64,000 nucleotides of DNA from Verrucomicrobiota bacterium (GCA_003402735.1 QQNE01000006.1:1-64000), one strand, 5' to 3'. Counted from the first letter of the stretch, positions 4,927 to 36,068 are shown. Numbers and translations are program-made. Notes: generated from the sequence alone by a model not told the origin.

Positions 4927-7900
4927 TCAATTGGTCGGCTTGGGAGCCGGGGGCATCGCAAAGGGATCTTCCATCGCAGGAGCTCCACCGGCCGGGGCCG
5001 GAGCGGGGGCGGGAGCGGGCGGAGTCCCACCGAAAGGATCTTCCATCGCCGGGGCACCACCGGCCGGGGCCGGAGCATTGCCGGGAGCGGGCGGAGTCCC
5101 ACCGAAAGGATCCTCCATCGCCGGGGCACCACCGGCCGGGGCCGGAGCCGGGGCGGGAGTGCCAAAGGGATCTTCTGAGGTCGGCATCTGCGTTTGCACG
5201 CCGCTCCCCTGGGTCTCGGTCTTGAACGCTTCGTTCGGTTTGGAAGTTCCTTGTGGGAGAATGGTTCCGTTCGGGGAGAGCGGCACCTCCTGAGGCAAAG
5301 CTTCCTTGAGGTTGACCGGGACAGGGACCACGAAGCCCCTCAGATTGACCACTGAGGCACTTCCCAGGCCCAAACCGCCGATGTAATCCACGGTGTAGGG
5401 ACGCTCCCCTTCCGGATCACGCCACTGGGAAAAATTGAAGAAGGATCCGTCCACGTATTCGTCCTGCCGCTCGAAGACATCGATCTTGAAGACGAAGGCA
5501 TTCCCAAGGTAATCGATGTAGCCGATGGTCGGATCGATCGGGGGCGGGATCACCGGCGGTGGCGGCGGAGGAGGAGGCAGCGGCGGGAGGCCCGGGCCGG
5601 AATTGTTGTAGTAGATGCCGTAGGCACCACCTACCGCATTCACCGGAGAATAGGGCCCTTCCGGAGTAAAGGTCCCGTTGGGAATGCTTTGGGCATCGAA
5701 GGTGATGGTATGCTCAAAGTAGTTGAGATACTCATCTCCCCGGGCATCCCCGGCTTCCAACGAGACGGCGTCCCCGGAATCCGGAGGGTTCGTCAGTTCC
5801 GGATCGGTGTAGGAAAATCCGTTGAAGAGAGTCCCCACGGCAATCGCGTTGTTGGGCCGGTTGGGCATGTAGAGGCGGAGTTGGCCGCTGCCTCCGCTGG
5901 TAAAGATATCTCCCGAGGTGGTGGTCATCACGCCGCTTCCTCCCAATCGATAACTCGGCTGGGTCCGGCTGACGGCCAGGAACGTGTTGCTCCCGATGGA
6001 GTTCAGGTTCTGGTAAGCGGCATGGCCCACCGCACTCCGGGTGAAGGTGGCGTTGTTCCCGACCGATACCTGAATGTCCCCCAACCGGGTCAAGAGATTG
6101 TGGCCGATCCGGGACGTTCCCAGCGCCGCTGCTGCCGGGATCCCTCCGGGGATGCTCACCGCCAGGTTGGTCCCACCCGTCATCGTCAGGTTCCGGCCCA
6201 CCACGGACTTAATGTTCCCGCTGATGCCGATCGTCTGGCCACGATACCGCAACGCGTCGGGGAGATCGGTGACAAAACCGTGCCCCACCTGGGCGAAGCT
6301 GTTGGCTCCCCCGCGCCCTCCGAGAATCGACAGATCCCGTCCGGTCCTCACCGTGATGTCGGACTGCACGTTGGCGATGCCGTTCATGTCGAGGGCCGGA
6401 TCGTTGTCGACATCCACCACCACGTAGTTGCGGACATCGAAAACCCCGCCATGACCGATCTGGACCGGATTCAACTGGGCAGGCAATCCCAATCCATCGG
6501 CGGCCTGGGGATTGCGGTTGCGCGGTTCGGCGAAGGCGGCATCGAGGCGAAGATCACCCGCCACGTTCACATTCACCCTCCCGCCGAGACGCAACCCGCT
6601 GATGGTGTCCGCGGCCGAAAAGTAGGAGCGGTCCAAGCCATTCCCGTTGGCGAAATGCCCGATGGCGGACCACCGATACAGCGTGTCCCCGCTGCGCATC
6701 GTCAAATTCCCGAGAGCCTGGACATCGATGTTCCCCACCTTGTCGGCGACCCTATAAGACGGATGATAGAAGGCGTCGTCATTGTCACCGGCGACCTGAT
6801 CCACGTCCCAACCGCCGTGACCGATCAATGCCCAGGCGTTCTGGTTGGTGGAGGCTGCCAGAGCCGTGGTGCCGTTGTTGTTCCCGAGCTGGGCCGTGGT
6901 AAAAACACCTGGAACCAGGGGATCCGTCAGGTAACGATAATTGAAGAATCCCAGCAAACCGGAACGCTCATTGTCCATGAGGATGTTGCGACCCACGCTG
7001 ACATTGACGTTGGCCGTGTTCCCGTAGGTGTTGAGCACCAGACCGCCACTGGCGATCCCGTTGACCCCGCCGGAAAGGGTGATCGTGGGCACGCCCGCCA
7101 CCACTTCCATGGTGGCCGACCGCGCCACATCAAACCGGGTGCTGCGGTTGGTGAAGGAGAAGGAGTCGTTCCGGTCCACGTTCCCGCCGACCTGGCCCCA
7201 GGAAGCGATCCCCGAGTGACCGATTTGCGCGAACTGCCCCTGTTGCCGTCCTGCCACCACCGTGAGATCTCCGGTCTCGGCGGTCACGGTGATATCCCCC
7301 GCCTTGTAATAGAACCCGTCCTGAAAACCGCCGTGCCCGACCTTGGCGTAGGCCCGGATCGGCAACGGCAAGCCGGAGGTGCTCAACGAGTTGCCCGTGT
7401 ATTCCACGGCGGATCCGCGGATCGAGACGTTGGTTTTGGCAAACACCGTGACATCGCCGACCGCCATGCTCGAGGACTCGAGATCGGCAACCTCCGCCCC
7501 GCCGTGACCGATTTGTGAATAATCATAAAAATGGTTCCCGGCCGTCTGACTGACCCCGCCCACCAACGCGCGCACCTCGATGTCGCCGATCAGGTTCAAG
7601 CCGGTGACTTGACGGTTTGCCGTTCCCACCGCGCCGCCGCTCAGGTTGGCATCAATGGCCGTTCCCGCCAAGTTGACCATGTCCCGAGAGCCACTGTCGA
7701 ACGTGGTGGCGTTGATCCCGTAAATGCCCAAGCCGGTGTTCCAGCCACCAATGTCTCCCCGACCCACAGCCACTCCGCCGTGTCCGATCTGGGTGATCCG
7801 GCCGCTGTAAACGGACTTGTTGTCCAACGTCAGTTGCGCGCCCAGGGCATCGGTGCGGACGTCCGAACCGGGAGCAATGAATCCACCGATGCCGATGGTG

Positions 7901-10900
7901 GTGGCCGAGGTCACCGGCGTGGTCGCCAACAGAGTGACGGCGGCCGTCTGAGCGACCCCGTTGAGCGTCGAACCAGCCGGGAGTTGGGTGCCCGCAGCCA
8001 GAATGCTGCCCACGTCCGGGGTAAAGGCGGCGGTCAGGGTGTTCCCGCCCAAATCATCCGTGAAGCCGGACAACATGGTCACTCCGTTGGCCCCGGAACT
8101 CTTCACCGTCACGTTCCCCACGATGGTTTTGTCCGTGAGCCCCATGAGGGCCGGAATGCCCACCGAGGTCGGCGTGACCGGTCCCGAGGCACTGCGGCCA
8201 CGTCCCGATGAAAACGTGAGGTAATCGGCCAGCGGCACCCGGGTGTCGGTCGGGGTGGCCCCCGGCTGGGTGTTCCCGGAGTTGCCCGTGGTGCTCGCCC
8301 ACTGGGTCTGGTTGGGCGTCGCCTGAAAATTCACGTCCCAATACCCGGCGGTGCGCTGCACGTTCGGCACCGCCCCAACCGCAGCCGCCAGAGGATCGTA
8401 AGCCACGGGATAAGCTCCCCGGGCGGCGGCTGTGCCCACCTGGAGCTGACCGCTTCCGTTGAGCACCGGCACGGCAAACAATTCGCCCACCCGCCAGTTC
8501 GGATTGTCGAAGTCGGTCGGGTTGGAGAAGAGCCGGACCTGGGCATCCCCGTTCGACGGATTGTTCCAATCGTTGAGTCGCCCGCCAAATGTGTGCCCAA
8601 TGGTGGCCCACGCATAGTTCTGGCGCCCGGCCTGCAGAGTCACATCGCCTCCCGCCAGCACCTTGATGTCGCCCCGGACGGACCCGAACTGTCCGGCCCC
8701 GAGGTGGCCGATCTGGGCGTAGGCGTATTCGATTTGGTTGTTCGGCGCAGTCGCGGAACCACCGGCCGATGAAGTGAGCGCCTGACGTCCCCGCAGCAAT
8801 ACGTCGCCGCGTCCGGTCACCACATCGGCCTGGAGAATGTCCGCCGGATTGGAGGCCAGCGGATTGAAGACCACAGACTTGGTGAGGTCCGCCCCGGCGA
8901 TGACATTGATGTGGCTGTAAATTGGGGCCAATCGGCCAATCGACTGATTCACCATGCCGTTGCCGCCCCCGTTCAAGGAGTAACTGTTCAGGGTCGGCGT
9001 CAGGAGGGATTGGTTGATCCCGTTGCTGTCGTTGCCAGTGTTGAGCTGCGTCCCCGGGGCCGTATTCAAGACCGAACGCGAAGCATTCCCGGTGGTTCCG
9101 ATGCCGCCGTGACCGATCTGGACCGCGTTGTTCTCCCGTCCACCGGCCTCCATGGAAAGTCTGCCGGTCAAGAGGACATTGATATCCGCCCGGGAAGAGG
9201 CGCTCAACCCGGCCCCCATCTCCGGCCGGTTCGCCCCGACGCCCCCGGTCCTCTCCGGAGAACCGACGGCCTCGATCCGCTGCCACCACCAGTTCCCCTG
9301 GGCCTGGTTGTTGAAGTGGTTGGCGTAAGCCATGAACGTGCCCGCCACCGGACCGGTGTCGTTCACCAGCATCACCCCATCGACGATCCCATCCGGAGCC
9401 GGGGCGTTGATGTTGGTGGGATCGAACGTGCTGTTGGTCACCTGGGATCCCCCCGTGTTGTAGGCGAGCCGGTCGATCTCGAACTGCCCCACCGTGGCCA
9501 CGGCGTTGGCCCCCGGCCGGGAAAAGGTCATGACGGTGTCGACCGCCGCCGCCAACCCACTCGTCGGCTTGGAGAGGGTGATGACATCGCCGTTGATCGC
9601 TGTGACATAGGTGTGAGCCAAGATCCCCGTGCCCGTCACGATGTCTCCGACCCGGATCGCCCGGGTGGCGGGGTTGTCCGCACCGGAATCCTTCAGGGTG
9701 ATGGTGACCGGCGGCAGATCGTTCCGCCCCGTGGCGTTGGCTTCGATGGCCACGGCGAGGCGGGTGTCGATAATGAGCAACGGGTCCGTGATCCCAGTGA
9801 GTTGCCCCTGACGCACGCTCTGGACAATGTTGTTGTTGGAATTGTCGTGCAGATCCACTCCCCGACCGCCGGTCCCTGCGGCCTGGGGGACGAAGACCAC
9901 CCCGGAATCGTGGAAACCCAACTGGGTCCAGCGCTGATCGCTGTTGGTCTGCGCGGCGCTCATCAGCAGGGTGTTGGCCGCCAGGTTGGTGTTTCCGTAA
10001 CGGCTGCCGACCTCGACGTGCCGTTCCAAATCCGCGCGACCGATCAGGATTGTGCCCTCGTCACCGAACTCCTTGTTCTCAACGTAGGTCTTCCAGCTCC
10101 GCTCCACTTCGGACAAGGTCCAGCCGGGAGTGCCCGAAGGCGTCGTTCCAAACGAACCCGCGCCCGCGAGGATCGAGCCTTGGGCGATGGTGCCGTTGGT
10201 GGCGATGGTGGTGGCGGCCGTGATCGGCGTGTTCCCCAAGGTCTGGGGAGCGGTCAAAGTCACCCCGTTGAGAACCGACCCCGTCGGCAGCACCGATCCG
10301 GCCGCCAAAAAGCTGCCGATGTCCAACGACACCGCCGTGGAGACGCCGACGTCCGTGGCCCCGAAGTCACCGAGGACCACCGGGCTGATCAGGTCCGCCT
10401 CGCTCCCCTTCCAACCGGCAATCAGGTTCACCGAACCGGCTCCCGAGGTCCGGATGTGGTTGGTAATGTAGATGTTCCCGCTGGCAAACAGCCCGAGGCT
10501 GGCATTGGACGTCCACTGGATGGCGTTGTGCCGGTTGTCCGCCAATCCGATGTCCGGGACGAAAATGCTCCCGCTCTCCGTGGCCACGATCACATCCGTC
10601 TTGCCCTGGAGAATGGTGTTGAGACTGGAAACCGGGATGTTCGAGGCGCTTCCACCGATGTAAACATCTCCGGGGTCAAAGAGCACGGATCCGGATTGCC
10701 CGCTCACCGCCGCCGCGGTCACACTTCCGCGATAGAGCAGATCCTGTTTGCCAGAGACCTCGATCCGACCGCCGCGCCCCAAGGTTCCCAAGGCCTGGGC
10801 CGAGATGGCCCCGGAAAAACCGGTGGTTCCATCCGACCAAATCACCACCTGCCCGGCATTGCCCAAAGCCGAATCGGCCCGGAGATCAACCCCCTCAGCG

Positions 10901-12555
10901 ACCGTGGTCCGCCATGAATTGCGCACCGTGGAATCCGCCTTGCCTTGGAAACTGCCGCCCACGTTGGCTTGCCCGCCGCCGAACCGGCCGCTGACGTCGA
11001 TCGAAGCTCCCGGCATCAGGGAAACCTCACCGGCCTCGAGATCGATTCGTCCCCCAATCGCGCCATCGCCGATCGCCAGGATGTAGCCGGCGGCTTCGAG
11101 GTTGCGGCCCGCCTCCAACGCCACCCGGCCGCCGTCCGCCCCACTCGCGGAAATCAGCCCCCCGATCCGGGCCGAGTCCGCCGCGCTCATCTCCACCGTG
11201 CCTCCCTTGACCGCGCCGTCGGCGATCACCGAACCATTCGACCCGAGACTCAGAGAAGTGCCCGTCACGGAGACGGTTCCGCCCATCCCGGTCGCCCCAC
11301 GAGCGGTGAGGAGCCCGTCCGCCTCCACCCGGCTCGTGCCGGTCACCGAGATCATGCCTCCATTGGTCTCTCCATTGGCACCGAGCGTGCTGTTGCGGTA
11401 GACCACGACTTCGCCGCCGTTCACCTCGACACGACCTCCCGCCCCAATCACGCCGTCGGCTTGCAACATCGTTCCCTCCCCGATCGTCACCGTCTTGCCC
11501 GCAGTGCCCCCGATCTCAATGGTTCCGCCGCTCGTGCCCTTGGCCTCAACCCGGGCATTGGCGAGCAAATCCACCCCGGCGCCGGACACCGTCACGGCCC
11601 CGCCTGACCCGCTCCGTCCCGAAGCGCTCAAGATCCCACCGATCTCGATTTCTCCGGCACCGTTGGCCATCTCGATCGTTCCCCCGGACCCATCGACGTT
11701 CTCCGCCGTGATCTCTCCCTGACTGGCCACTGTCCCGGTGGCGGCCCTCAGAAAAACGCGACCGCCCTGCTGACTGGTTCCGGTGGCCCGAACCGCCCCG
11801 GGATTGTTGATGGCCAGCGCATAGGCATTTCCGTGTGCCTTCAACTCCGTCACCGCACTGCGAATCTCTCCGGTGTTGTTGACGCTGCCCTCCCCGGCAC
11901 TGACAAAGACCCGCTCATCCCCTGCCCCCTTCGCCTTGATCAGGACGCTGTTCCCGGCGGCCAAGCCCACAGTCCCCTCGAAAGCGCCCAGGACCCCGTG
12001 GTTTTCCACGGTGCGCCCGACCAGAAAAAGATCGCCACTGGCGGCCTTGATCGTGCCGAAGTTCTGCACCGCGGCCTCACTGTTTCCCTTGAGCGTGACA
12101 TCCCCGCCCCGGAGAAAATCGTCGTCGTCGATTTCCAGGGTGGAAGCGAGGAACCCACCGACATCGATCAGACCGTTGGGTCCGACCACCACCCCGTTCT
12201 GGTTGATGAGCCAGACATTCCCGTTGGCCTTGAGGATGCCATTGAGCACCGACGGGCTCGCCCCCATGACCCGGTTCAAGGCGGTGGCATTCGACCCCGG
12301 CTGGATGAACTGGGTGATCTCACCGGCACCGATGGAAAAGCTCTCCCACTCGATGATCGCCTTGCTGGATCCCTGGTTCACCGTGAGTTTGCCCAGCGCC
12401 TCCGCGATTTCCGCGTTCCCGGAGATGACCTTGCCTCCCTGCGGATTGGCAAAGGCCGGGGGCACCACGAGCGCCACGAGGCAGGAAACAAGCACACCGA
12501 CCCGCATCGATGCAGGCAGGCGATTGCGAAACAGTTCAAGAACGGATGGTTTCAT
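4927..12555 (-). CDS. Giant two-partner-secretion-type (filamentous haemagglutinin-like) exoprotein, downstream copy
   Basis: About 2542 residues. A signal peptide ending near AFA-NPQGG is followed by a TPS/haemagglutination-activity domain (about residues 25-190), with INQNGVVVGPNG and a DVGGFLAST stretch typical of TpsA proteins. The body is Gly/Thr/Asn-rich beta-helix sequence. From roughly 9.13 to 6.01 kb it carries about 13 copies of a motif centred on IGHGG, several degenerate. A module with LPxGSxLNGV occurs twice (around 10.32-10.15 and 8.02-7.86 kb). Near the C-terminus are a conserved block, a Pro-rich linker, a RQDEYVD block and a tail of GGAPAMEDPFGG repeats. The start may be ATG 12555, 12582 or 12507. 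It lies about 10-40 bases after the stop of its larger paralogue, so the two are probably co-transcribed. No TpsB partner is nearby. Expected to be secreted or surface-bound; ligand unknown. Confidence 0.88.
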   Translation of the reverse strand: MKPSVLELFRNRLPASMRVGVLVSCLVALVVPPAFANPQGGKVISGNAEIAEALGKLTVNQGSSKAIIEWESFSIGAGEITQFIQPGSNATALNRVMGASPSVLNGILKANGNVWLINQNGVVVGPNGLIDVGGFLASTLEIDDDDFLRGGDVTLKGNSEAAVQNFGTIKAASGDLFLVGRTVENHGVLGAFEGTVGLAAGNSVLIKAKGAGDERVFVSAGEGSVNNTGEIRSAVTELKAHGNAYALAINNPGAVRATGTSQQGGRVFLRAATGTVASQGEITAENVDGSGGTIEMANGAGEIEIGGILSASGRSGSGGAVTVSGAGVDLLANARVEAKGTSGGTIEIGGTAGKTVTIGEGTMLQADGVIGAGGRVEVNGGEVVVYRNSTLGANGETNGGMISVTGTSRVEADGLLTARGATGMGGTVSVTGTSLSLGSNGSVIADGAVKGGTVEMSAADSARIGGLISASGADGGRVALEAGRNLEAAGYILAIGDGAIGGRIDLEAGEVSLMPGASIDVSGRFGGGQANVGGSFQGKADSTVRNSWRTTVAEGVDLRADSALGNAGQVVIWSDGTTGFSGAISAQALGTLGRGGRIEVSGKQDLLYRGSVTAAAVSGQSGSVLFDPGDVYIGGSASNIPVSSLNTILQGKTDVIVATESGSIFVPDIGLADNRHNAIQWTSNASLGLFASGNIYITNHIRTSGAGSVNLIAGWKGSEADLISPVVLGDFGATDVGVSTAVSLDIGSFLAAGSVLPTGSVLNGVTLTAPQTLGNTPITAATTIATNGTIAQGSILAGAGSFGTTPSGTPGWTLSEVERSWKTYVENKEFGDEGTILIGRADLERHVEVGSRYGNTNLAANTLLMSAAQTNSDQRWTQLGFHDSGVVFVPQAAGTGGRGVDLHDNSNNNIVQSVRQGQLTGITDPLLIIDTRLAVAIEANATGRNDLPPVTITLKDSGADNPATRAIRVGDIVTGTGILAHTYVTAINGDVITLSKPTSGLAAAVDTVMTFSRPGANAVATVGQFEIDRLAYNTGGSQVTNSTFDPTNINAPAPDGIVDGVMLVNDTGPVAGTFMAYANHFNNQAQGNWWWQRIEAVGSPERTGGVGANRPEMGAGLSASSRADINVLLTGRLSMEAGGRENNAVQIGHGGIGTTGNASRSVLNTAPGTQLNTGNDSNGINQSLLTPTLNSYSLNGGGNGMVNQSIGRLAPIYSHINVIAGADLTKSVVFNPLASNPADILQADVVTGRGDVLLRGRQALTSSAGGSATAPNNQIEYAYAQIGHLGAGQFGSVRGDIKVLAGGDVTLQAGRQNYAWATIGHTFGGRLNDWNNPSNGDAQVRLFSNPTDFDNPNWRVGELFAVPVLNGSGQLQVGTAAARGAYPVAYDPLAAAVGAVPNVQRTAGYWDVNFQATPNQTQWASTTGNSGNTQPGATPTDTRVPLADYLTFSSGRGRSASGPVTPTSVGIPALMGLTDKTIVGNVTVKSSGANGVTMLSGFTDDLGGNTLTAAFTPDVGSILAAGTQLPAGSTLNGVAQTAAVTLLATTPVTSATTIGIGGFIAPGSDVRTDALGAQLTLDNKSVYSGRITQIGHGGVAVGRGDIGGWNTGLGIYGINATTFDSGSRDMVNLAGTAIDANLSGGAVGTANRQVTGLNLIGDIEVRALVGGVSQTAGNHFYDYSQIGHGGAEVADLESSSMAVGDVTVFAKTNVSIRGSAVEYTGNSLSTSGLPLPIRAYAKVGHGGFQDGFYYKAGDITVTAETGDLTVVAGRQQGQFAQIGHSGIASWGQVGGNVDRNDSFSFTNRSTRFDVARSATMEVVAGVPTITLSGGVNGIASGGLVLNTYGNTANVNVSVGRNILMDNERSGLLGFFNYRYLTDPLVPGVFTTAQLGNNNGTTALAASTNQNAWALIGHGGWDVDQVAGDNDDAFYHPSYRVADKVGNIDVQALGNLTMRSGDTLYRWSAIGHFANGNGLDRSYFSAADTISGLRLGGRVNVNVAGDLRLDAAFAEPRNRNPQAADGLGLPAQLNPVQIGHGGVFDVRNYVVVDVDNDPALDMNGIANVQSDITVRTGRDLSILGGRGGANSFAQVGHGFVTDLPDALRYRGQTIGISGNIKSVVGRNLTMTGGTNLAVSIPGGIPAAAALGTSRIGHNLLTRLGDIQVSVGNNATFTRSAVGHAAYQNLNSIGSNTFLAVSRTQPSYRLGGSGVMTTTSGDIFTSGGSGQLRLYMPNRPNNAIAVGTLFNGFSYTDPELTNPPDSGDAVSLEAGDARGDEYLNYFEHTITFDAQSIPNGTFTPEGPYSPVNAVGGAYGIYYNNSGPGLPPLPPPPPPPPVIPPPIDPTIGYIDYLGNAFVFKIDVFERQDEYVDGSFFNFSQWRDPEGERPYTVDYIGGLGLGSASVVNLRGFVVPVPVNLKEALPQEVPLSPNGTILPQGTSKPNEAFKTETQGSGVQTQMPTSEDPFGTPAPAPAPAGGAPAMEDPFGGTPPAPGNAPAPAGGAPAMEDPFGGTPPAPAPAPAPAGGAPAMEDPFAMPPAPKPTN
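4964..5172 (-). repeat. 72-bp tandem repeats encoding Ala/Pro-rich DPFG tail
   Basis: The end of the giant exoprotein gene contains units spaced exactly 72 bases apart (GGATC words at 4964, 5036 and 5108), then a shorter final spacing of 60 bases. Each full unit encodes 24 residues built around PAGGAPAMEDPFGG plus an Ala/Pro run. The high DNA identity between units suggests recent expansion and possible copy-number variation between strains. Confidence 0.8.
6010..9130 (-). repeat. IGHGG repeat array in the downstream exoprotein
   Basis: About 13 occurrences of a [FYVA]-x-[IV]-G-H-G-G-like motif, several degenerate (for example IGHLG, IGHTF, VGHAA). Each follows a beta-strand pattern of the form GDIxVxAGGxVxLxxG. 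On the plus strand they appear as recurring words such as CCGTGACCGATCTG. Spacing is irregular, from about 60 to 270 residues. Confidence 0.8.
7857..10323 (-). repeat. Duplicated GSxLNGV module in the downstream exoprotein (two copies, about 2.3 kb apart)
   Basis: Copy A (about 10323 to 10150) and copy B (about 8016 to 7857) encode nearly parallel sequences of roughly 55 residues: GS(F/I)LAAG, then LPxGSxLNGV, then TPxTxATTI, ending xGxIAxGS. The copies flank a large part of the protein and indicate intragenic duplication. Confidence 0.7.
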
Positions 12556-12591
12556 CACGCGTGTTCCGGAAAAATGGGACATTCGGTGCGG

Positions 12592-15500
12592 TCAGTTGCT
12601 GGGGGTGGCCGGTGTGCCAGGAGCCGGGGTGGCAGGTGGCGGGGTCATGAAGGGATCCGGAGCTCCCCCGTTCATGGCAGGGGGAGGAGTCCCGGGCGCA
12701 GGCGTTCCCGGTGCCATCGGAGCAAAGGGATCGTTTGGATCCGTTCCCATCGCAGGCGGTGCGCCGGCGGGTGGCGCAGATCCGAACGGATCCTCCGAAG
12801 GAGCGCCCATGCCAGCTCCTGGAGCGGGTGCCGGCGCGGCAGGATCCGCCGCACCGGGCTGAGCACGGCGTCGCTTCTCCTCCTCGCTCTCGGTGCCCGA
12901 GGGATCACCCAAGCCGAACGGATCGGTCCCCCCGGGGCCGGTGGCAGAAGTGGAACTCTTCCGGGGACGAGGATTCATGACGAAACCGGTCACCGGATCA
13001 TAAACCAGAACGCCGCTCTCCCAATCGGTCAGTCGCTTGAGTTCGAAGACCTGAAACGGAAGCCCTTCATTGTCAGATCCCGCCACCGGCCGGTCCTCGG
13101 GCAGAATCACGCTGCTGGCTCCCTGCTGCTGCAAGACCCAGAAACCATCTCCCGAAGAGGCCCCCCTTCTCCAGGCATCAAAGGTAAACACCGTCCGGTC
13201 CACGTTCTCGTCTTGCCGGGAATACCGATCGATCAGCAGAGGATTGTTGTTCAAGATCCCGGTCCCCGGAGCATCCCGGACAAACGAGGGAATGACCGAA
13301 GGCCCCGGGCCTGGGGGAACCACCGGGGGCACCACCGGAGGCACCACCGGCGGGGAGGCGGCTTCCGCGTAGTAAATCATGTAGCGGCTCCCGTAAGGTT
13401 GCGGAACTCCGGGGAACGCCCCCTGCGGCGTGAAACTTCCCACGGGGAGACCGGCGGCACTCAGGGTCATCGTGAATTCCGTGGCCTGACGCTCATCGCC
13501 CAACAGGTCTCCGCCCACTCCGCTGGTCGGTTCCGTGCTCCCGCGCAGGGTCGGATACACGATTCCCGTCGGGTTCGGGTTGTCGTTCTCCGGATCCACA
13601 TAGCCCACGCCATTGATCAGCGTGCCGAAGGTCCGGGTCGCATCCAGGCCCGCCAGGGTGGCTTGTCGGCCCTGCATGAAGTTGCTGTCCACCAGTCCCA
13701 GGGTGACGCCGCGGGTGGATCCATTCCCCCGCCCAAACGCCCGGTCCGGCATGTAAACCCGCACCTGATCGCCACTGGCCGAACCCGAGTTGAAACTGGT
13801 CGGCAAAACGGTCTGGTTCCCTCCACCCGGGATGGCCGTGCCATCGCCGATGACCGTTTCGTAGTTGGAAACGGACCAATTCGAATACAACCGTCCGATC
13901 CCCTCGGCATTCGGATTGCGGCGGCTCACCGCGATGTAGGTGCTCGAGCTGTTGGCGTAAGAGGCGTTCGGAGCCAGCACCGGATCCACGTGCCCGATCT
14001 GCAACCCGGCCGCCCAGAGATCGGTCCCGGTGGCGACGGAGATGTTCCCGCTGCGAAGACCACGACCCTCGGTCGGAAGCGGCGGAGTCAGGGAAGTCGG
14101 CAGGATGAAAAAATCTCCGTGACCGATCTTGGAATAGGCGCCAATGGCGCGGCTCGGGTCTGTGGTCAACGTCGGAGGAACGCCGACGGATCCGCGCTGA
14201 TACGTCGTGCGGGTCAACGTGGAGCTGGGGGAAAGTCCTCCGGCCACCAGATTGCCCCAAGCCTGCACCTTGATGTCTCCCACCAACATCGTGGTCGGGC
14301 TCACCCGCGGACCGCCGTGCCCGATCTGGGCGAAGGAATACGTGCCCTGGGCCGGGTTCCGTTGCCGGGAGAGCGCCCCCAGGATGGTCCCGTAAGCCGC
14401 GTCAGAAATTTCGTCATCCTCCCGATACTCCGCCGGGGTCAACAGGATGTCGCGCCCCGAACGCACCGTGATGTCCCCTTGGTGCCCGCCACGAGGAACG
14501 ATGGTGACATCGGCCGAAATCGTGGCCAACGCGCCACTGCCAATCATGGCCTGAGCCGAGGAAGCGCCTCCCCCGGTCAGGACAATGTCACGAACCGCGG
14601 TGGCCAGGATCGCTCCGTTGGAGCTTTCCGAACGGGTGCTGTCCGCCGCGCTGGCCGCGCGGGAGGAGAACATGTGGCCGACCTGAGCGAAGCTGCCGGC
14701 GTTCGATGCGGGAAACCCGCCATTGTTCACGCCGCTGTTGGCGAAGAAATCGCCGCCCTCCAGCAGCAGGTCATTCCCGGAATTGACGGTCACGTCCCCG
14801 GTCACCGTGATCGGCCCGGTGCGGACCTGATAGCCTCCATGGCCGATCATGGCAAAGTTGTAGAAACCGTCCCCGCCCAGGAGGTTCACGTTTCCTCCGG
14901 TCATCGGAACCCCGCCCACGGTCTGCCCGGAGTTCACCGTGATGTTCCCCTGCCAACGTTCGATGCCCTGGTTGGCTCCGGCTCCGGTTCCTCCCAACAG
15001 GCTGCCGCCGTGCCCAATCTGCGCCACCGAAGCCCCGTCCGTGTAGAGCGTGGTCGGGTAAAAGACCGAGGTGGACGGCTGGAACGGAGCCAGTGAGAAG
15101 GCCGGGTCCCCATCGAGCTGGCTGTCCCGTCCGGCCCGACGGTCCGCGATCAACCCCATCCGCCGCAGGGCGGCCTCGTTCACCGCATCCGCCGTGGTCA
15201 ACCCGACAAGAGTTCCCTGCGGCAATCCGACGGCCAACTCCTCGGCCCTCAGCGCATTGTCCAGGGCGGTGACCACGGCCGCGTTGTTGTTCGGATTGAT
15301 CCGAAAATCGTCAACGCCGCTGTCGGGCTTGTAAAACATCGCCAGCGGGTGCCGCACCAGAGCATTCGCCCCGGTCACCCCGTCGTCATCGGTGTCGTAG
15401 AGCGGAGCGTCTCCTCCCCTGAGCAACAAATCACGTCCCGCCCCCATGTTGACCGTCACGTTCCCAGAGAAACTGGACCCGGCGTCCAACCCCAAAGCCA

Positions 15501-18500
15501 CGGCGGTCCCGGAAAATTCGCGTCCGCCGTGCCCGATGCGCGCCGAGTCATTGAAGAGAATGCCGCCCAGCAGACTCGCGTTTCCACCAGTCACCGTCAC
15601 ATTGATATCCCCCTGCAATCCGGCGGCCGCAGTCGGGTTCCCAATCCGGGCATCGATGTTGGAACCTCCGTGACCGATCTGGGCAAACCGCCCCAGAATT
15701 CCATCGCCCACCGGATCCCCGGCCGTGGAAAGCGAAATGGCGCTGGTCTGAATCCCACCCAGCAAAGCGAGCCCCTGACCCGTCAAGGCGCTCACCCCTC
15801 CCGCACTGACCGTCACGTTCCCCAAGATGGTGGCCACCTCAAAAGACTGATCCGTCCGCATCGGAGTCGACCCGGTCCCACCCAGGTTCCGGCCAAACAC
15901 CCCGTTTTGCAGAAAACTGCCAAACACTGGGTCGTTCAGCGTGTTGATGGTCGGTTGCGTGGCATCCGTCGCCACGTTGTCGAGAAACAGGGTGGGCCCC
16001 ACGGTGGCCACGTTGGTGTCCTCAAAATCGTAACCGCCGTGCCCCACCATGGCGAACGCGGCGGCCCGCGAACCGGCCAGGATGCTGACCCCACCAGTCG
16101 CGCTTGCGACATTGATGGAACCGCTGAACGTGGTGTTTCGGTTCAAGGCATTGTTGTTGATCGTGGAGGAATCGCGTCCGCCGTGACCGATCATGGCAAA
16201 GGCAGTGGTGCCCCGTCCCCCCTGCAAGGTGACATCGCCCAGGGTCTGGACGTTGATGTTCCCGGAGACCAGGGCCCCGTTCGCCGAAGCCATTCCCCCG
16301 TGCCCGATCATCACATAGTTCTCCCGGCTGTCCGGAGCCGTTTGCGCCGAAACGGTCCGGGCGTTGCGGGCAAACGTGTAGGTTCCCGAGGGAGCCGCCT
16401 GGAAATTGGAGGAAATCCGGAAGCGGCGCTCACCCAGAATCTCGGTCACCACCGCCGTGCCATTCCCGGTCGTCACCCCGATCCCGGGCCCCGTGATGGA
16501 CGAACCGACCCCGATGTTCAAGGCCGTCAACGTGTCGTTGGCATTCAGATCGATGACGTTGGATCCCACCGTGGAGGCCGGCACCCGGTCCGCAGCTGTC
16601 ACGGTGGAAATGCTTCCCTCCGTGGCGATGGTGACGTTCTGTCCCGAGATGATCTGCTGCGCGAAGTCGCTGGCCAACATGCGAAGCTGACCTCGGCGGG
16701 AGGTCACCGAAATGTCCCCCTGATGCCCCGCGTTGGGCAGGAAACCCTCCATCTGGCTCTCGCTCCCGCCGTGACCGATCTGAACAAACCCGCGCACCGC
16801 GGATTGCGGGACGGTGGTCAGCGAAGTGCCGGTGGTGCTCCTCGGCAAGGGCGAGTTGGCTTGCCCATAGGGATTGGTCTCCAAATTGCGACGCTGCGCC
16901 GCCGTCAAGAGGACGCTGCCGCCGGCATCGACCGTGATCGCCCCGCTCCATCCCCGGGCAAAGTTCACCGGGGTGTTCAAGGTGTTGATGAACTCGGCAA
17001 ACTCGGGGTTCACCGTGGCTGAAAAGACCGGGGTATTGATATTCGTGGGGGTCCCGTTGATGTAAGAACTCGGGTCGGTCGAGCCCGGCGGTGCCACCCC
17101 GAGTTGAGTGAAGAGGTAACTGGTGTTGCCACCGGTCACCCCGTCGAACACCGTGGAGATGTCCGCCCCGTTGAGCCGAATCGGAACCACGTTCTGCGCG
17201 CCGAAGGCCGGACCAGTGGTCGGGGTCTGAAAGAGGACCCGGATCGATCCGTCAGGCCCCGGAGTTACCAGAAACGAATTGCTGTTTGCCACCCCTGTCG
17301 ATGCCTCCAGCGCGGTGTCGATGTCGGCAATCGCGGTGACCATCGGCGTGGTGGAACTGACGTTGATGGCCGGGGTGGTGTAAGTCGTGGTGCCGACCGT
17401 GTAATCCAGAACAAATCCCGGAGCCGCCGGAAGATTGAAGGATTGCACCTCGTTGCGGCCCACGCCCGCCTGCTCCTGAATCGGATCCCTCGCCGATCCG
17501 TTCGGGTTCAGGAAGAAGAGGTTCGCGTCGTTGGCCACCCGCGCCTGCAAGCCTCCGGTTCCCACAACGCCAACGCTGTTCAGCACGCGGTTGAAGGTGA
17601 CGAACCGTTCCCCGACATTCGCGCCGATCCCGCGCTCCACCCCCGTGATTTGGTAAACGCCCGTCTGGTTCTCAAAACCAAACCGATCACCAATCTGCGG
17701 CTGGTTCGCCAAGGTGCTGTTGCCGAACGTGTAGGCCCCAGAGGCGGCGGCGGAGAGCGAGTTGGACAGGGTCAACGTCTGTCCCGCGATGCCGGTGATC
17801 GTGGTCCCCGGAAGGATGCCGGTTCCCCGCACCGGACTGCCCACCGCGAGGGTGAGATTGGCCGGGGTGTCGGTCCCCTGAAGCGTCAAGGTGTTGGTGG
17901 CGGCGGCCCCAGTCGGATTCGTGGTCGTCACGGCGCTCGACCCCGCGAACGTGTAGTTCCCCGCCGCGGCAGCCGTCAGGTTGTTGGAAAGGATGAGCGT
18001 TTGAGGACCGCTGAACCCGGTGATGATGGTGCCGTTCGGGATCCCGGTGCCTCCCACCTCACTCCCAATCCCGAGGAACAGGTTTCGCGCCGTCTCGGAC
18101 CCCTGCAACGCCAGCGTGTTCTGGCCACTGGCCCCGACCGGCGTCAAGGTGGTCACGGAACGGTCTCCCGGGTTGTCCAGGTTCAGACGGGTCGTGGCCG
18201 CCTCGTTGGTCAGGAAGGTCACCCCGGTGGGAGCCGCGGTGGTCAACTGCGAGATCTCAATTTGGGTCGGTGAAACAATCCGAGTCACGACCGAACCTGC
18301 CGGGACGTTGGTGCCCGACACCGTCGTTCCCAAAGCGATGTTCAACGAAGTCACCGTATCGGTCCCGGTCAGGTTGAGAAGCCGGAAGTTCGTTCCGTCC
18401 CGGGTCACCGTCGCCACCGGATTGATCACGTCCACCTGCCAACCGGACGGGGCATCGAGATGCTCCAACCGCCCCGCGAGGAGTTGCGTGTTGGTGAGTG

Positions 18501-21500
18501 CGGAAAGTTTGGTCTGCTGCCTCACCCCTGCGCTGGTGAACATGACCAAGCTTTCCACCGAGTTGCTGGTCATCCCGGTGACCCGTTGATCGCCGGACAT
18601 CGGGTTGTCGCCACGCACCGTGTGTTCGGAGTTCCGTCCGCCGTGACCGACCATCGCAAAATTGTCGGCCCCGGTGTCGCCTTCACCCGCCCCTCCGCTC
18701 AGGGCGGAGTTGGCGTCGAACGCATCCCAACCACCCGTGGACTCCATCCGCACATCCCCAACCGAAACAATCGAGATGGCTCCGCTCGCATCGGCCCGGG
18801 CCTCGATCCCGCCATGCCCGATCATCACGAAATTGCGCACCCCGGCCATGCCTCGCTCGTTCTGCCCGCTCAGCAAAGGATCCGCCCCGTCGAGGTGATT
18901 GACATTCTTCTGGCCTGCATAAGCGTCGACCAACCCACCGAGGTTCAGGGAAATGTCCCCGACAAACGCGCCGTAGGTGTCGGACACCCCATCCCCGTTC
19001 ATGTCATTGCCCTTGACGGCGTCGAACGGGCTGTCGAGGAAGTCGTCCGTGGCATAAATCCGGTAGCCTCCATGCCCGATCTGGGCAAACGCCTCGGTGT
19101 TGCGGAACCCGGCGCGCTGGATGAGGTTGCCACTGGCCGTGACCGTGATGTTCCCGAGGATATCTCCCGCCACAAAGTCGCGGTTCCACTCCCGCACTCC
19201 GCGCACGAACGCTGTGGCACCCACATCAAAGTTCGCGATCCCCCCGTGCCCGATCTTGGCGAAGGCGTTCGACTGCCCGCCGTAAAGCGAAACGTTGCCT
19301 CCGCCCGCGTTCACGATGATGTTCCCGTTGGCTCCACCGGTGCTGAAAATGCCGCCGTGACCAATCTGCACGTAGGCCTCGGTGCCCAAGTTGGAAACCG
19401 GTGTCCCCGCGCTGCTCACCTCCACCATCTGGCGGGTCAGCGAGATGGCTCCGTCCGTGGCAACCACCGAGATGTTCCCATCCGCGCCCGGCACCGCATC
19501 ATAACTCCATCCGCCGTGCTGGCCGGCCGTAAACAAGCCACCGTGACCGATCTGGGCGTAGGCCCGACCGCGCCCGCCCGCCTGCAAGGTGACGCTGCCC
19601 TGGGCCAGGACCGAGATGTTTCCGGCGTGGCCAAGTTTACCCGTGGTCCGAGGCACGTAGGCACCGGTCGCATCGCGCCTCAGCAGCAATCCCAGCGCGG
19701 TGTTGTAAGCACCTCCCAAATCCTCGCCGTCCGTCACCGCCTGCCTCAACTCATCGATCGTGGTGATCTCGTCCCCGATCACGGATCGGCTGTTGAAATC
19801 CGTGGGCAGCGCGAAGGTATGATCCGAATTGAAGCCACCGTGACCGATCTGGAAGAAATTGCGGGTCACGGTATCGGTCGCGGTCCCCGTCGGCACACTC
19901 TGATTGATCTGGGTGCCGAGCGCCACGATGTCCCCCACGGTGGCGGTGACGTTGATGTTCCCGGCGTGCTCGCCCCGCACGTTAATGCCGCCGTGACCGA
20001 TCTGAATGAAATTGTCCGCCAGCGCGTTCACCGCCGTCAGTGACCCATTCACCCGATAGGTCATTCCCGAAGCGGTGACGCCGATATTCCCGTAGGTGTT
20101 GACCCGGACGTCCACCCCGTCGGCCTTGCCGCCGTGGCCGATCTTGAACCAGCCGTTGTTGGTCCCGCCCGATTGCGCGAGAATCCCGCCGACCACGTTC
20201 ACCGTGATGTCACCCGTCAAGACGCGATCCTGAACCCCGGTCGTGGCCGAAACCATCCGACCTCCGTGCCCGATCTGGACATAGCGCCAGTCGGTCCCCG
20301 GCAGCACCGCGTTGTTCGCCACCAGATTCCCCTTGGCATACAAATTGATGGCCCCGCTCACCCCGCCGCCGTCGGTCCCGTTGTGAAACCAGCCGATCTG
20401 GGTGTATTCGTTCGTCAGATCCCCCGGTGCCATGACGATGTCCTTGGCGAACAGATTGGTCTGGCCACGACTGCTCGCGATGTTCACCGAATGCGCCCCG
20501 TTCGGATTCAACTCGATGGCCCCGCTCATCCCGTAGTTCCCGTAAGTCCCGGCCAGGATGTCCGCCGCCGCGATCGGGCTGAGCGAAGGAGGCGTCCCAC
20601 CCCCGAGAGCCTGGTTGCTTCCCCCCACCGTTGGATAACCAGCGGTGCTGAACAATGACGAGCCCGTGCCGGTCCCGTCCCAACCCGCCACCAGGTTGAT
20701 GTTCCCCGTTCCACGATTCAAAATCCGGGTCGGCCCCACCGGGTCCGTGGCGACATTCGGAGCAATCGTGATGTTGTTGTGCGCGAACAACGAAAGCGAA
20801 TACCCACTGGCGGCCTCCATGTTCACGTTGGACTCGACCACGATGTTCCCCTCGTCCGTTCCGCTCCCGCCCGTGTGCACCACGACATTCCCCGCATTCC
20901 AGGCGCTGACCAGCGCGTCGGCATTGATCTCACCGGGGTTCACCGCCCCCTGCGAAATCCGCACGTTCACCGGATCCAACAACAGGGTGCCCCCCGCCAA
21001 ATCCACCGTCCCCGCAAAGGTCAGCTGTTTCTTGCCCGAAACCTCCACAAACCCTCCGCGCTGGCCGCCGACCACCGAGAGCTCACCGCGATAGAGCGTG
21101 TCTCCGTCCGCCCACAGGGAAATCGCCCCGCCCGCTCCGCTTCCGCCGCTCGCGTCCAACCTCGCGCCGGAGGCCACGGTGGTGGTCATCGCGTTGCGCA
21201 GACTGGCATCCCGTCCGCCAAAACCTCCACCGGCAAAGATCGCGCCGCCGTTCACCGCGCCGGACGCATCCACCAGCGCCGTCGGAGCCATTTCCACTTC
21301 GCTGCCTGTCAGGCGAAGCGTGCCTCCGGAACCGGCGCCACCCTCCGCCTTGACCGCTCCTTCCAACAGAAGTTTTCCGGCCGCCTCCAGGCTCGCCATC
21401 CCGCCGGCACTCGTCCCAGAAACCACAATCTCCCCGGGCACACCCAACCCGGCGCTCCCGCCCTCGATCCGGACGCTGCCGCCCGTCCCTTGGCTGCTGG

Positions 21501-24012: not shown

Positions 24013-25017
24013 TCAGGGAGCCCCGGCCAACGTCTCCGGCTGCAACAACATCAAGACGCGGTTGCGGCTGGACGAATCAATCTCCCGGGCCGGCTTGATG
24101 GCGGGGATTGGCAACAACTGCTCAGAGGGAAGAGGTTGTTCTTTCAACTCCACTGGCCGCTCCCTGGCCTCCCCCTCCTTCGGCCCTTCGTCCCCAGCCC
24201 CGGCACTCGCCAAAAGCGAGAGCGCCGACACCCGCGACTCCGCCTCTGATTTATCGACAGGACGCGGCGCCGCTGCCTTGTCAGTCCCGGAGACCGCCAG
24301 CAAAGCCATGAGCTCGATGCTCTCGCGGTCCGGACCCACCTTCGGCTCCGCCGACTCGACCTTTGTCCGATTCGACTCCGCCACGCTGCTGGCAGGCACC
24401 TTCCCTGCTCCCTCCATGGCCCCCAGTTTCTCGGTCACCTTGGCCACAAGCCAACTGGTCCGATGCTCCGTCAGCGGGTTCGGAGCATACTCCGTTTTCC
24501 CGGTCCGGGCAGACCCAGGCACCGGAACCGGCGCCACCGGAATCACCGGCTGAATGTTGGGATGCGCCAGAAGCGACAACGAATCCGCCGACGGATTCAT
24601 CACCGCATCATCGCTCTCCTCAATCTGCATCGGCCCAAGCCTCATCACAATCCCAGACACAAGCTTGCGCAGATCCGCCCCGCTCGGGCGAGATCCCTCA
24701 CGGCGCCCACCCTGCGCCCCGCGGACCGTCACCTCCGGCAACTCGCCCGTTGCCCCCGCTTTCGTCGCCACACGGGCCGACGTGGTCGGACGACCAAAGG
24801 CGCTCGCGAGCTTGGAAAACAGATTTTCCGGAGCGGGCGCGGGCGCGGCCACCACCCGCTTTTTTGGAGCGGACGTTGGACCCGATGCCCTCAGACGGGC
24901 CTCGGCTTCCTTGATCGCCGCCTCTGCGTCATTTCCCCGGGCAAATGCAACCCCAGGGAAGGGCCCCAGCGCAAGGGACAGCACGAGGCCAATGCCAAAA
25001 ACGGACGTTGTCTTCAT
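24013..25017 (-). CDS. Secreted Ala/Pro-rich protein of unknown function (third of a secreted trio)
   Basis: 334 residues from the ATG at 25017, with a signal peptide (GLVLSLALGPFPGVAFA) and then a low-complexity, mostly charged, Ala/Pro/Glu-rich body. Short Leu-Ala motifs recur (LMALLAVSG, LSLLASAG, LSLLAHPN) and resemble short stretches in the two genes upstream. No enzymatic domain is visible, and the SH3-like block of the other two proteins is absent. It is 72 bases downstream of the second trio member and probably part of the same transcript, although an AT-rich stretch before the start could hold a promoter. Function not known. Confidence 0.75.
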   Translation of the reverse strand: MKTTSVFGIGLVLSLALGPFPGVAFARGNDAEAAIKEAEARLRASGPTSAPKKRVVAAPAPAPENLFSKLASAFGRPTTSARVATKAGATGELPEVTVRGAQGGRREGSRPSGADLRKLVSGIVMRLGPMQIEESDDAVMNPSADSLSLLAHPNIQPVIPVAPVPVPGSARTGKTEYAPNPLTEHRTSWLVAKVTEKLGAMEGAGKVPASSVAESNRTKVESAEPKVGPDRESIELMALLAVSGTDKAAAPRPVDKSEAESRVSALSLLASAGAGDEGPKEGEARERPVELKEQPLPSEQLLPIPAIKPAREIDSSSRNRVLMLLQPETLAGAP

Positions 25018-25089
25018 GATAGGTCGATCACTAATACACTTGTACGTGCTATCAACCAACCCAAAAATGAAACTTTTGCTAGATATCTT

Positions 25090-26220
25090 TTATCCAGAAG
25101 TTTTTCGCCGCCCTTGCACGGGTTCCCCCTCCACTTTCCCTCCTTCTGGACCCTTCTCGCCCCCCGCTCTTGCAGGCTCCCCCGCACCTCCGCTCGGCTC
25201 GCTGAGAACCGGCACCGTCCTCGAATCGAGATCCATCAAGCCCATGGACATTCCGTTCCCGTCCGGGCCCGCCGCCGAGGAGGTCTCCATGGCCAGAAAC
25301 TGTTGGACTTCATGCTCCGTCGCGGCCCGCAAATACCGGTTCCGCATCACTCCCATCAGGCCGGTGTCCAACTGGAGCCAGGCCCACTCCTTGCCGCGGT
25401 CCTTGACGCGCCCCACCCGGTCCCCCTCCAACTCAATCAAAATCGTCTGGTCCGGCAACTCGTCGAACGCATGGAAAGGTCCCCGAAAAACCACCGCCAC
25501 GTATTCAGGGCCCGGTGGCGCATCCGATGCCCCCACGGAATCGGTCCCGGACCGGAGCGTTCCCGCCGAGGCCGGAACGTTTCCGCTGGCTTTGCCGCCC
25601 CCGAAAAGAAACCTCCTGAGCGGCGCAGCGGTTCGTCCCCGCGACTCCGCTTGCCGCGATGCGGCGACTTCCTCCGGCCGTTCCTCCGAAGGTTTGCCCG
25701 CGGCGGATTTGGCGACCGCGGCCGGTTCGTCCGCACCTTCCTGACTGGCCTCGAGCAAAGCCAAAAGCACCGGGCTCGGAGCCCCCGGTCGAGGGTTCAT
25801 GCTGGTTCCGGAAAAGGCTCGCAGCTGGTCCAATTCATAAGACAAGTCCGCAGCAGAGGTCAGCCGCCCCTCCACCAATGTATTGGGAATCCACGGTTTT
25901 TTCGGCGGGTCCGAGACCGTCTCCGGAGCCGGTTCAGTTCCCGTCGTTGCGCTGGTTGCCTGGGCTTTGGAAGGAGAAAACCATTGGGCCGGGACCACCA
26001 GCACCCGCACCGTGCCTTTGCCCACCACTCCACAGGCCGCCGCCATCCGGCCAAACAACTGGTACACCACCGCCTCCTCACCCTGGCTGGAAGATTCCAC
26101 CGGGGCGGTCTCCGCAAGGGAGAGGGATGCCACCGCCAAGACGACCGCCATGAGCCAGGCAGGCCCGGCGGCGCCCAACCCTCCCGGACTCGGGAGACAA
26201 CCGGTTCCGTGACGGTTCAT
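25090..26220 (-). CDS. Secreted protein with SH3-like domain, second of the trio
   Basis: 376 residues with an N-terminal hydrophobic segment (WLMAVVLAVASLSLAETA) acting as signal or anchor. The first part (VVYQLFGRMAAACGVVG) is followed by a long Ala/Pro/Glu-rich linker. Around residues 240-315 a compact domain contains KEWAWLQLDTGLMGV, the WxxLxxGxxGxV pattern of bacterial SH3-like folds. This domain is clearly homologous to one in the preceding gene. Its ATG overlaps the stop of that gene (ATGA), so the two are translationally coupled. Bacterial SH3-like domains usually bind peptides or peptidoglycan; the actual ligand is not known. Confidence 0.75.
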   Translation of the reverse strand: MNRHGTGCLPSPGGLGAAGPAWLMAVVLAVASLSLAETAPVESSSQGEEAVVYQLFGRMAAACGVVGKGTVRVLVVPAQWFSPSKAQATSATTGTEPAPETVSDPPKKPWIPNTLVEGRLTSAADLSYELDQLRAFSGTSMNPRPGAPSPVLLALLEASQEGADEPAAVAKSAAGKPSEERPEEVAASRQAESRGRTAAPLRRFLFGGGKASGNVPASAGTLRSGTDSVGASDAPPGPEYVAVVFRGPFHAFDELPDQTILIELEGDRVGRVKDRGKEWAWLQLDTGLMGVMRNRYLRAATEHEVQQFLAMETSSAAGPDGNGMSMGLMDLDSRTVPVLSEPSGGAGEPARAGGEKGPEGGKVEGEPVQGRRKTSG

Positions 26221-27977
26221 GGAAGAATGGGAACGGGACTGGGCACTGCGAGGGCACCCGCTGGACCCGATCCTTGCAACGGAATGGACTGTGGACCCGA
26301 AGTCCGCGGCGCCGCGCCGGAGGCCGGAATTCCCGGCGTCGGTTCCTCTTTGGCAGAGGCCTCACCCTCCGGAGCGGTCGTCATGGCCGGCTCGGAGGCG
26401 AACAACGGGTTCTCCATCGCGTCCCCGCGTTTCGGCATTTCCGACGGAAGCTCCGGCAACTCGACTTCCAGATAGCGAACTTCCCGGCCACCGTTCCCGG
26501 ACTTGGAGCCGCTCTTGGATTCCGCGGCAAGAAAGGTGACCACCTCGCCCACCGCCGCGGGACGGAGATGACGCTTCTTCACGAGCCCCATCAAACCCGA
26601 GTCCAACTGCATCCACGCCCACTCTTCGCCCTCGCCGTGTTTGCGCCCCACAGTTCCCGATTCCAGTTCCATCGAATGCGTCTCGCCCGGTCCGGTATCC
26701 ACCACGTGAAAGGGTGCTTTCGATGTTTTGATGACGAAATAACCCGCAGATTCCGGTGCCGGGGGCGCGGCTTTGTCCACCGGCGGTTTGGCCTCCGCTT
26801 TGCGTTCTGGTTTCGCTTCCGGTTTTGCTTCCGGCTTCGACTTGGCTGACAGACTCGCGACTTCCGGTGGCCGCGCCTCCGCCGGGGCGGCCTTGAGAGC
26901 CTCCGCCCGCACCGTGGAAAGCCACTGACCAATCCCGTTAAGAAACGCCTCGCGCTCCGGCCCGGGCCCTTTCGCCTCGGGCATCTTCTCACTTGGCGGA
27001 GGCTCCACGGTTGGAGCTTCCACCAAACTGGTCTCCGCCGCCGCCGGCTTGCGCTTCTCAGGCGGTCGGTCCGATTTCGCCGGTCCCGGGGGCTCTGACT
27101 CGGAAAGCTCCGGCCCCGTCGAAGCCATCAAGGCCGCCTCCAACCCTTTGCCTGAAAGAAATCCCAAAAGACGTCGCTTGGTTTCCCCACCAGGCTTGGG
27201 CGAGGGAATTTCTTCCATCACCGCCACCACGTCCTCCGCCGGAGAGACTTCCGTAGAGGAGGCCACCACCGGCGCCGGAACCGCCGCTGGTGCCGGAGCA
27301 CTGGGGGCTGGTTTGGGGGCCTGAACCGGAGCGGTCACAGGGGCCACCTCCGCTTTGGCTTTCGGCTGCACATTTGCCTTGGTCCCGGGCCTTGCCGCCA
27401 ACACAGCCGCCTCGCCCCGGGTCGAATTCTTGGGAGGTGGCGCTGCCGCGGACTTGACTGTCCCACCAGTCGGCTCCACTTCCGCCCCCAGAGAAACTGC
27501 CCGGCCTTCCCCCGGCGCCTTTTCCCGGCCATTCCCGACCCCCAGAAAAGCCAGCCGAATCGTTCGGTTCCGATCGGGTTCGGGTTTCGCTTGGGGTTTT
27601 GCTTCGGGTGCAGGGCTCCCCGACGCCGGACGGGCCTCGGTCCGAGCCACCTTGCTCGCCGCCTGCTGCGGATTCTGAGCCGCCTGCCACTGCTCGAGAG
27701 GGACCAATCCTTGCGGGGTCACCACCTGGAACCGAAACGGCTCCGGCGTCGGTTCCAACGCGCGGGACTTCAACGCGGCCGACGGAAGAGGCTTCGGCGG
27801 AGCGAGATCCCGAGGGGTCGGCTCATACCGCGCCGCCTCCTTGGCCTCTTTCATGCGCCGGACCCGCTCAAGAGCCGCGTCCTCCATCCGCTTCGCCTCG
27901 GAATACGCCTGCCCCTGGGCACACAACATCCCGGTGGAGACGAGCAAACAGAGAAAAACCAGCCGGGGCACGGACAT
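26217..27977 (-). CDS. Secreted protein with SH3-like domain, first of the trio
   Basis: 586 residues with signal peptide VFLCLLVSTGMLCAQ, then a charged helical stretch (EAKRMEDAALERVRRMKEA) and a very long Ala/Pro/Lys/Glu-rich region (about residues 90-400) likely to be extended or disordered. A globular domain at about 410-480 contains EEWAWMQLDSGLMGL and matches the domain of the next gene over about 70 residues (PFHVVD versus PFHAFD, LELESG versus IELEGD, KRHLRPA versus NRYLRAA). The stop overlaps the next start. Composition suggests a periplasm-spanning or surface-extending linker carrying a binding domain. No known family recognised beyond the SH3-like resemblance. Confidence 0.75.
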   Translation of the reverse strand: MSVPRLVFLCLLVSTGMLCAQGQAYSEAKRMEDAALERVRRMKEAKEAARYEPTPRDLAPPKPLPSAALKSRALEPTPEPFRFQVVTPQGLVPLEQWQAAQNPQQAASKVARTEARPASGSPAPEAKPQAKPEPDRNRTIRLAFLGVGNGREKAPGEGRAVSLGAEVEPTGGTVKSAAAPPPKNSTRGEAAVLAARPGTKANVQPKAKAEVAPVTAPVQAPKPAPSAPAPAAVPAPVVASSTEVSPAEDVVAVMEEIPSPKPGGETKRRLLGFLSGKGLEAALMASTGPELSESEPPGPAKSDRPPEKRKPAAAETSLVEAPTVEPPPSEKMPEAKGPGPEREAFLNGIGQWLSTVRAEALKAAPAEARPPEVASLSAKSKPEAKPEAKPERKAEAKPPVDKAAPPAPESAGYFVIKTSKAPFHVVDTGPGETHSMELESGTVGRKHGEGEEWAWMQLDSGLMGLVKKRHLRPAAVGEVVTFLAAESKSGSKSGNGGREVRYLEVELPELPSEMPKRGDAMENPLFASEPAMTTAPEGEASAKEEPTPGIPASGAAPRTSGPQSIPLQGSGPAGALAVPSPVPILP

Positions 27978-30690: not shown

Positions 30691-30691
30691 A

Positions 30692-31873: not shown

Positions 31874-32000
31874 GGATTGAGTGGGTGCGGGGGGACCGAT
31901 TTGGCGATCCCCTCGGGTGAACGGTTTGTTTACGGTTTGGAGCCCCTCACCGGTTTCGCCATCCTTCAGGATTTGTGGCGGGAGGCTCCGCGCTCCGGTC

Positions 32001-33596: not shown

Positions 33597-33627
33597 AATG
33601 CAACGATTGGAAAGTGAGGAGTTCAGT

Positions 33628-35934: not shown

Positions 35935-36068
35935 GAGGGGTTTCCGGCGCAATGCCCCCGTTGGACATGGCGCTGCGAAGTCCCGGTGCCCGACCGACTT
36001 TTTTGTTGGACCCGCGCCAGTCAAGCCGCTACCGGGACCTGTCCCACTGTTTTCTTTTCTCAAGAGCG

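Follow-up and report, generated by a model that had tools for sequence, protein, structure and literature searches.

A once-per-coil GHGG motif in giant two-partner-secretion exoproteins of Verrucomicrobiota, probably forming an inward polar ladder in a predicted beta-helix

Results

Two tandem exoprotein genes

The window, a stretch of 64,000 nt from a Verrucomicrobiota genome (QQNE01000006.1:1-64000; genome G000 below), carries on its minus strand two adjacent genes for large exoproteins. The first, P0001 (12592..22632), is a TpsA-type giant of 3346 aa when read from a TTG, although translation more likely starts at the ATG of residue 15 (about position 22590). The second, P0002 (4927..12582, 2551 aa), follows 9 bp after it. 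Both possess a TPS secretion domain that scores above the PF05860 cut-off and also matches TIGR01901 (P0001, 21754..22503, E 5e-27; P0002, 11707..12447, E 1e-27), and in both the N-terminus, read by eye from the translations, is hydrophobic and ends in A-x-A, a candidate Sec signal peptide. BLASTP aligns the two proteins at 35% identity over 727 columns (5e-90), and they have in common an N-terminal body, GH repeats, a C-terminal module and a Pro/EDPF-rich tail; judged by these sequences they are tandem paralogues. The C-terminal module reads RQDExVDxxxFxFxxWR in both, and the Pro/Ala-rich tails after it (window 12592-12880 and 4927-5240) hold repeated (E)DPFG units, possibly a surface anchor or a C-terminal signal.

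P0001 contains 24 [IVL]GH motifs. One, a VGH at residue 229, falls within the TPS domain and is unrelated; the other 23 lie in the body (residues 787-2879), where 19 of them read exactly GHGG. They form two blocks: residues 770-1345 (18598..20325) with 11 motifs, ten of them GHGG, and residues 1941-2890 (13963..16812) with 12, nine of them GHGG and the degenerate ones GHMF, GHGD and GHVD. Between the blocks sits an insertion (residues 1346-1940; 16813..18597), and no GH motif occurs between residues 1328 and 1952. The insertion, as read from the sequence, has repeats of its own of about 65 aa (...GTGIPNGTIITGF...), in about three copies following the pattern NTLxLQGTxTxxNLxLxxGSxVxGTGIxPGTxITG...LTLSNxLxAAAxGxYTF; its sole Pfam match is weak (PF21430, E 0.015), and P0002 contains a piece that resembles it. 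The GH block of P0002 is more degenerate (residues 1156-2189; 6016..9117), with 13 [IVL]GH at residues 1156-2185 and exact GHGG in six.

Motif counts and spacing

The copies span window positions 6016-20274. The original prediction had placed about 22 and about 13 copies between 6010 and 20290, and both its counts and its span are essentially right. To set these counts against chance expectation we shuffled each protein 2000 times with its composition preserved. For [IVL]GHGG, P0001 shows 19 against a shuffled mean of 0.03 (maximum 2) and P0002 six against 0.02 (maximum 1); for [IVL]GH the corresponding values are 24 against 1.4 (maximum 6) and 13 against 0.8 (maximum 5). The motif comes at the end of a strand-rich stretch, typically G-[DN]-I-x-V-x-A-x-G-x-[VL]-x-L-x-[GA]-G-x5-[FY]-A-x-I-G-H-G-G, as had been noted earlier, but it does so usually rather than always. 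Distances from copy to copy are irregular in the window proteins (26-624 residues) because of long insertions, while the unit is far more regular in relatives, with a mode of 37 residues and mostly 36-46.

The same genome encodes two more giant TPS exoproteins, L007 (G000:C38) and L008 (G000:C82), which measure 3773 and 3866 aa and contain zero [IVL]GH, hence the motif is no by-product of being a TPS exoprotein.

The repeats are clearly homologous and their copy number varies greatly between proteins, as would be expected if the motif were a sequence quirk spread by recent tandem duplication and free of structural or functional constraint. Adjacent units are, however, only about 28% identical, and yet G-H-G-G is strongly conserved over 2664 distinct copies. 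Every motif His is also conserved between species: in two same-genus orthologues per protein the motif His is unchanged in 46 of 46 and 26 of 26 cases, against overall identities of 77% and 79%. The divergence of the units refutes spread by recent duplication without constraint, and we give this explanation hardly any credence.

Predicted fold and register of the motif

AlphaFold2 models were made for a regular 245-aa stretch of the relative L051 (44 sequences) and for residues 730-1345 of P0001 (50 sequences). The L051 model has pLDDT 95.4, pTM 0.92 and three strands per unit. Its best solved neighbours by VIA are tapirin (Z 11.8, 138 aligned) and MpAFP (Z 9.1, 127 aligned), right-handed beta-helices whose alignments cover roughly half of the 245 residues. 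With some half of each unit covered in this way, one unit of about 38 residues would correspond to one coil, with a core of about 20 residues plus loops. Two coils per unit, as the period might suggest (37 = 2 x 18.5), are ruled out by the three strands per unit and by the same half-length alignments. A beta-propeller, considered on account of the roughly 40-aa unit and a weak match to the designed Cake4, is ruled out by the AlphaFold2 and VIA results together with the up to about 90 copies per chain.

The P0001 model reached pTM 0.83 with a mean pLDDT of 77, above 90 in the core and poor in the loops, and is thus only moderate outside the core. Its best VIA match is the TPS adhesin EtpA (8cpk), with Z 16.5 and 255 residues superposed at an rmsd of 3.4 A; the left-handed helices of LpxA and GlmU superpose no better than about 12 A. 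For neither model did Foldseek return a match at E below 0.001, and the fold is therefore assigned from the VIA Z-scores and the TPS context. From these models we predict the exoprotein body to be a right-handed parallel beta-helix.

DSSP was used to place the motif in the models. At all ten GHGG modelled in P0001 the preceding strand stops at the aliphatic residue, G-H forms a break and G-G opens the following element. A degenerate copy, GHAG at residue 1000, departs from this pattern. The same register is seen at the seven motifs of the L051 relative, where each unit has one corner motif. Since strand end, G-H break and G-G start are shared by the modelled GHGG copies, the motif is in these models a corner, held in register. 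Structure prediction, which had been proposed as a check on the motif, returned beta-helices. In these models GHGG comes after the same strand of each coil, which supports the idea that the His residues occupy one and the same corner from coil to coil.

Probable export through TpsB

Two TpsB (ShlB) genes are present in G000, on contigs other than that of the exoproteins and thus unlinked to them, and in relatives G012, G014, G024, G035 and G053 a TpsB gene adjoins the repeat gene. Among 57 relatives TpsB was found in 18 of 18 repeat-positive genomes versus 12 of 39 others (Fisher p 3e-7), and within the family in 17 of 17 versus 5 of 19 (p 3e-6); it should be noted that these p-values are inflated by relatedness and that the co-occurrence is partly phylogenetic. 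On the sequence evidence we assign P0001 and P0002 to the two-partner-secretion exoproteins (type Vb), with a new type of coil and no new secretion system. The exoprotein would pass through the TpsB pore and fold one coil after another, giving a fibre that is secreted or stays at the surface. Considering TPS export and the long predicted beta-helical fibre, such a protein would most likely act in adhesion, in a matrix or as a surface coat.

Residues at the histidine position

Aligned to an HMM, about 3200 units show I-V-A, I-L/F-G and A-I-H at the inward positions of the three strands, so that the His takes the third of the inward places in its own strand. To obtain the spectrum of residues at this position we held the other seven positions fixed, giving 2387 distinct copies: H 78.5%, N 12.0%, L 2.1%, Q 1.9%, S 1.6% and A 1.1%. 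A charged residue (Asp, Glu, Lys or Arg) occupies it in five of the 2387 (0.2%), and no Cys was seen. Adjacent Asn-Asn units number 97, versus 43 in shuffled data with a maximum of 61. Neighbouring units share 28% identity whether they are HH, HN or NN pairs, so the clustering of Asn does not come from recent duplication, though it may alternatively reflect regional composition. The relative L063 (4419 aa, read from about position 4997 on the plus strand) has 42 units, of which 35 carry Gln (YAQLGQGG), four Asn and three His, and by its sequence it is a natural H-to-Q variant.

These data bear directly on the proposal that the corner histidines form an outward-facing array for binding metal ions or an anionic polymer. 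Such an array would agree with the register of the corner, with the very strong conservation of the His and with the presence of more than 80 copies in some relatives. Against it, His is exchanged for Asn, Gln, Leu, Ser and Ala, hardly ever for a charged residue, and L063 has replaced nearly all of its His by Gln. Acidic residues of the adjoining loop do not behave as co-ligands either, as they co-occur in 8.9% of cases against 8.9% expected. We therefore regard a metal or ligand array as unlikely, and the surface for metal or ligand binding suggested in the original prediction is not supported: the substitutes seem to fit a buried ladder, and the loop acids are independent. From the pattern of substitution, a polar ladder in the interior is more likely than a metal or ligand site on the outside. 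The same statistical independence of the acidic positions rules out a loop calcium site (DxDGDxSGD) resembling those of RTX or EF-hand proteins.

Another possibility is that function resides in the Tyr-Gln stripe on the outward side of this strand, a flat repeated surface serving polysaccharide binding or lateral packing, with the His as mere structural backing. Positions -5 and -3 should point outward by alternation and are highly conserved (Y/F 81% and Q 72% in the profile), with charged residues at just 0.5% and 3%. The best structural neighbours of the L051 model, tapirin and MpAFP, are of interest in this respect, as flat beta-helix faces serve cellulose binding in the former and ice binding in the latter. 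On the other hand the conserved residues may lie under long loops and hence be structural too. The stripe is an alternative candidate binding face in view of its conservation, but that it is the functional face with the His as backing seems doubtful to us.

A probable inward ladder of His and Asn

We consider it probable that GHGG is a once-per-coil corner, and that its His forms an inward polar ladder in a TPS beta-helix exoprotein. Each unit of about 38 residues (GDITVxAxGDIxLxGG...YAQIGHGG) would make one coil of three short strands, with the strand [YF]-A-x-[IVL] running into the corner G-H-G-G, where the glycines would permit the turn, and with long variable loops leaving the coil at other places. 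The His, or the Asn or Gln in its place, would most likely point inward and stack on the equivalent residue of the neighbouring coils. The inward direction is suggested by strand alternation and substitution statistics, and in the P0001 model DSSP ends the strand before the His, which makes the alternation across the corner uncertain. His, Asn and Gln are the uncharged residues whose side chains can stack and form hydrogen bonds in a ladder, and we infer such bonding between coils here. The polar ladder would then zip the coils in register in the manner of the asparagine ladders of alginate lyases. In the window proteins the ladder would be interrupted by insertions, given the irregular spacing.

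An argument against a ladder and nothing more is that His is a costly choice where Asn would do. Further, we speculate that the His column might act beyond glue, for example as a pH switch whose protonation would loosen the coils, or as a proton or metal wire, but we hold this to be very unlikely. If true, it would be a functional His column of tens of in-register steps (up to about 90 in relatives), about 4.8 A apart, along a secreted fibre. The findings make a question testable, namely what a polar ladder contributes to the folding and pH stability of a beta-helix that is secreted unfolded via TpsB.

Comparison with known systems

Like the TpsA exoproteins FHA, EtpA and HMW1 (PF05860), the present proteins have an N-terminal TPS domain, a long predicted beta-helical body and TpsB in the genome. 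Unlike them, the body is built of the GHGG coil of about 38 aa, which no Pfam or NCBIfam model describes, and the TpsB genes of G000 are unlinked. In the asparagine ladder of the PL6 alginate lyases, of which a 10-step example was called the longest reported in 2019 (PMC6879350), one very conserved polar residue likewise recurs at the same turn of successive coils, and His and Asn exchange in the repeat studied here. Differences are that the residue here is mainly His in a G-H-G-G corner, that up to about 90 steps occur and that there is no sequence relation; a natural His/Asn/Gln ladder of this kind would far exceed the ten steps.

A short motif once per coil at the strand-turn transition is also known from the Chlamydia Pmp repeats GGA(I,L,V) and FxxN, whose conserved side chains are predicted to point inward in a structural role (PMC11166332). 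The Pmp proteins, however, are autotransporters (type Va) with F and N instead of H and another motif and period, and PF02415, the Pmp repeat, has no match in P0001, P0002 or 44 relative segments. The RTX beta-helix of MpAFP (3p4g) resembles the present models as a parallel beta-helix, with a structural match of Z 14.8 for P0001 in addition to the Z 9.1 for L051. MpAFP is described as Ca2+-dependent, whereas no acidic site pattern is seen here, and it gave no sequence match in the PDB search.

Spread of the repeat

With a profile of 12 window units the repeat was found in 18 of the 57 relatives, 17 of these belonging to the same family, and the highest copy number was 93 [IVLM]GH in one incomplete chain. 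Scanning 84,980 species yielded 64 loci, of which 51 are labelled Verrucomicrobiota and 13 otherwise (Alpha- and Gammaproteobacteria, Anaerolineae, Armatimonadetes, Theseobacter and Planctomycetaceae), where the labels are those of the MAG records, taken as given, and may include contamination. The profile search proposed earlier for the taxonomic spread of the motif thus shows a repeat that is mostly of Verrucomicrobiota, with other phyla scattered. All ten relatives that were checked for a TPS domain had one, among them loci with the labels Gammaproteobacteria, Alphaproteobacteria, Armatimonadetes and Anaerolineae. No relatives of the repeat were found among viruses in IMG/VR or plasmids in PLSDB. 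A phylum-wide profile search matched nothing outside the own genome, which is no evidence of absence as few members of the own family were sampled and few candidates per genome were scored.

No Pfam, NCBIfam or PDB sequence model covers the unit, matches being sub-threshold or by chance. The literature searched returned only unrelated papers for an IGHGG or GHGG repeat, and nothing on the GHGG repeat among work on TPS in Verrucomicrobia, in line with the original prediction, which knew of no described function for it. The GHGG repeat appears as a widespread beta-helix coil from which many uncultured Verrucomicrobiota, and scattered members of other phyla, build the bodies of their giant exoproteins, and as it is absent from the family libraries searched, a repeat model would let annotators recognise such proteins.

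Neighbouring genes

Upstream of the exoprotein genes, at window 24013-27977 on the minus strand, lie three consecutive ORFs (348, 376 and 586 aa) without Pfam or NCBIfam match. Beside the exoproteins, at 28047-36063 and also on the minus strand, is a cluster of genes for Fe-dependent alcohol dehydrogenase, aldehyde-dehydrogenase-like, AMP-binding and PQQ beta-propeller proteins. From weak matches we would guess the aldehyde-dehydrogenase-like protein to be LuxC-like and the AMP-binding protein LuxE-like.
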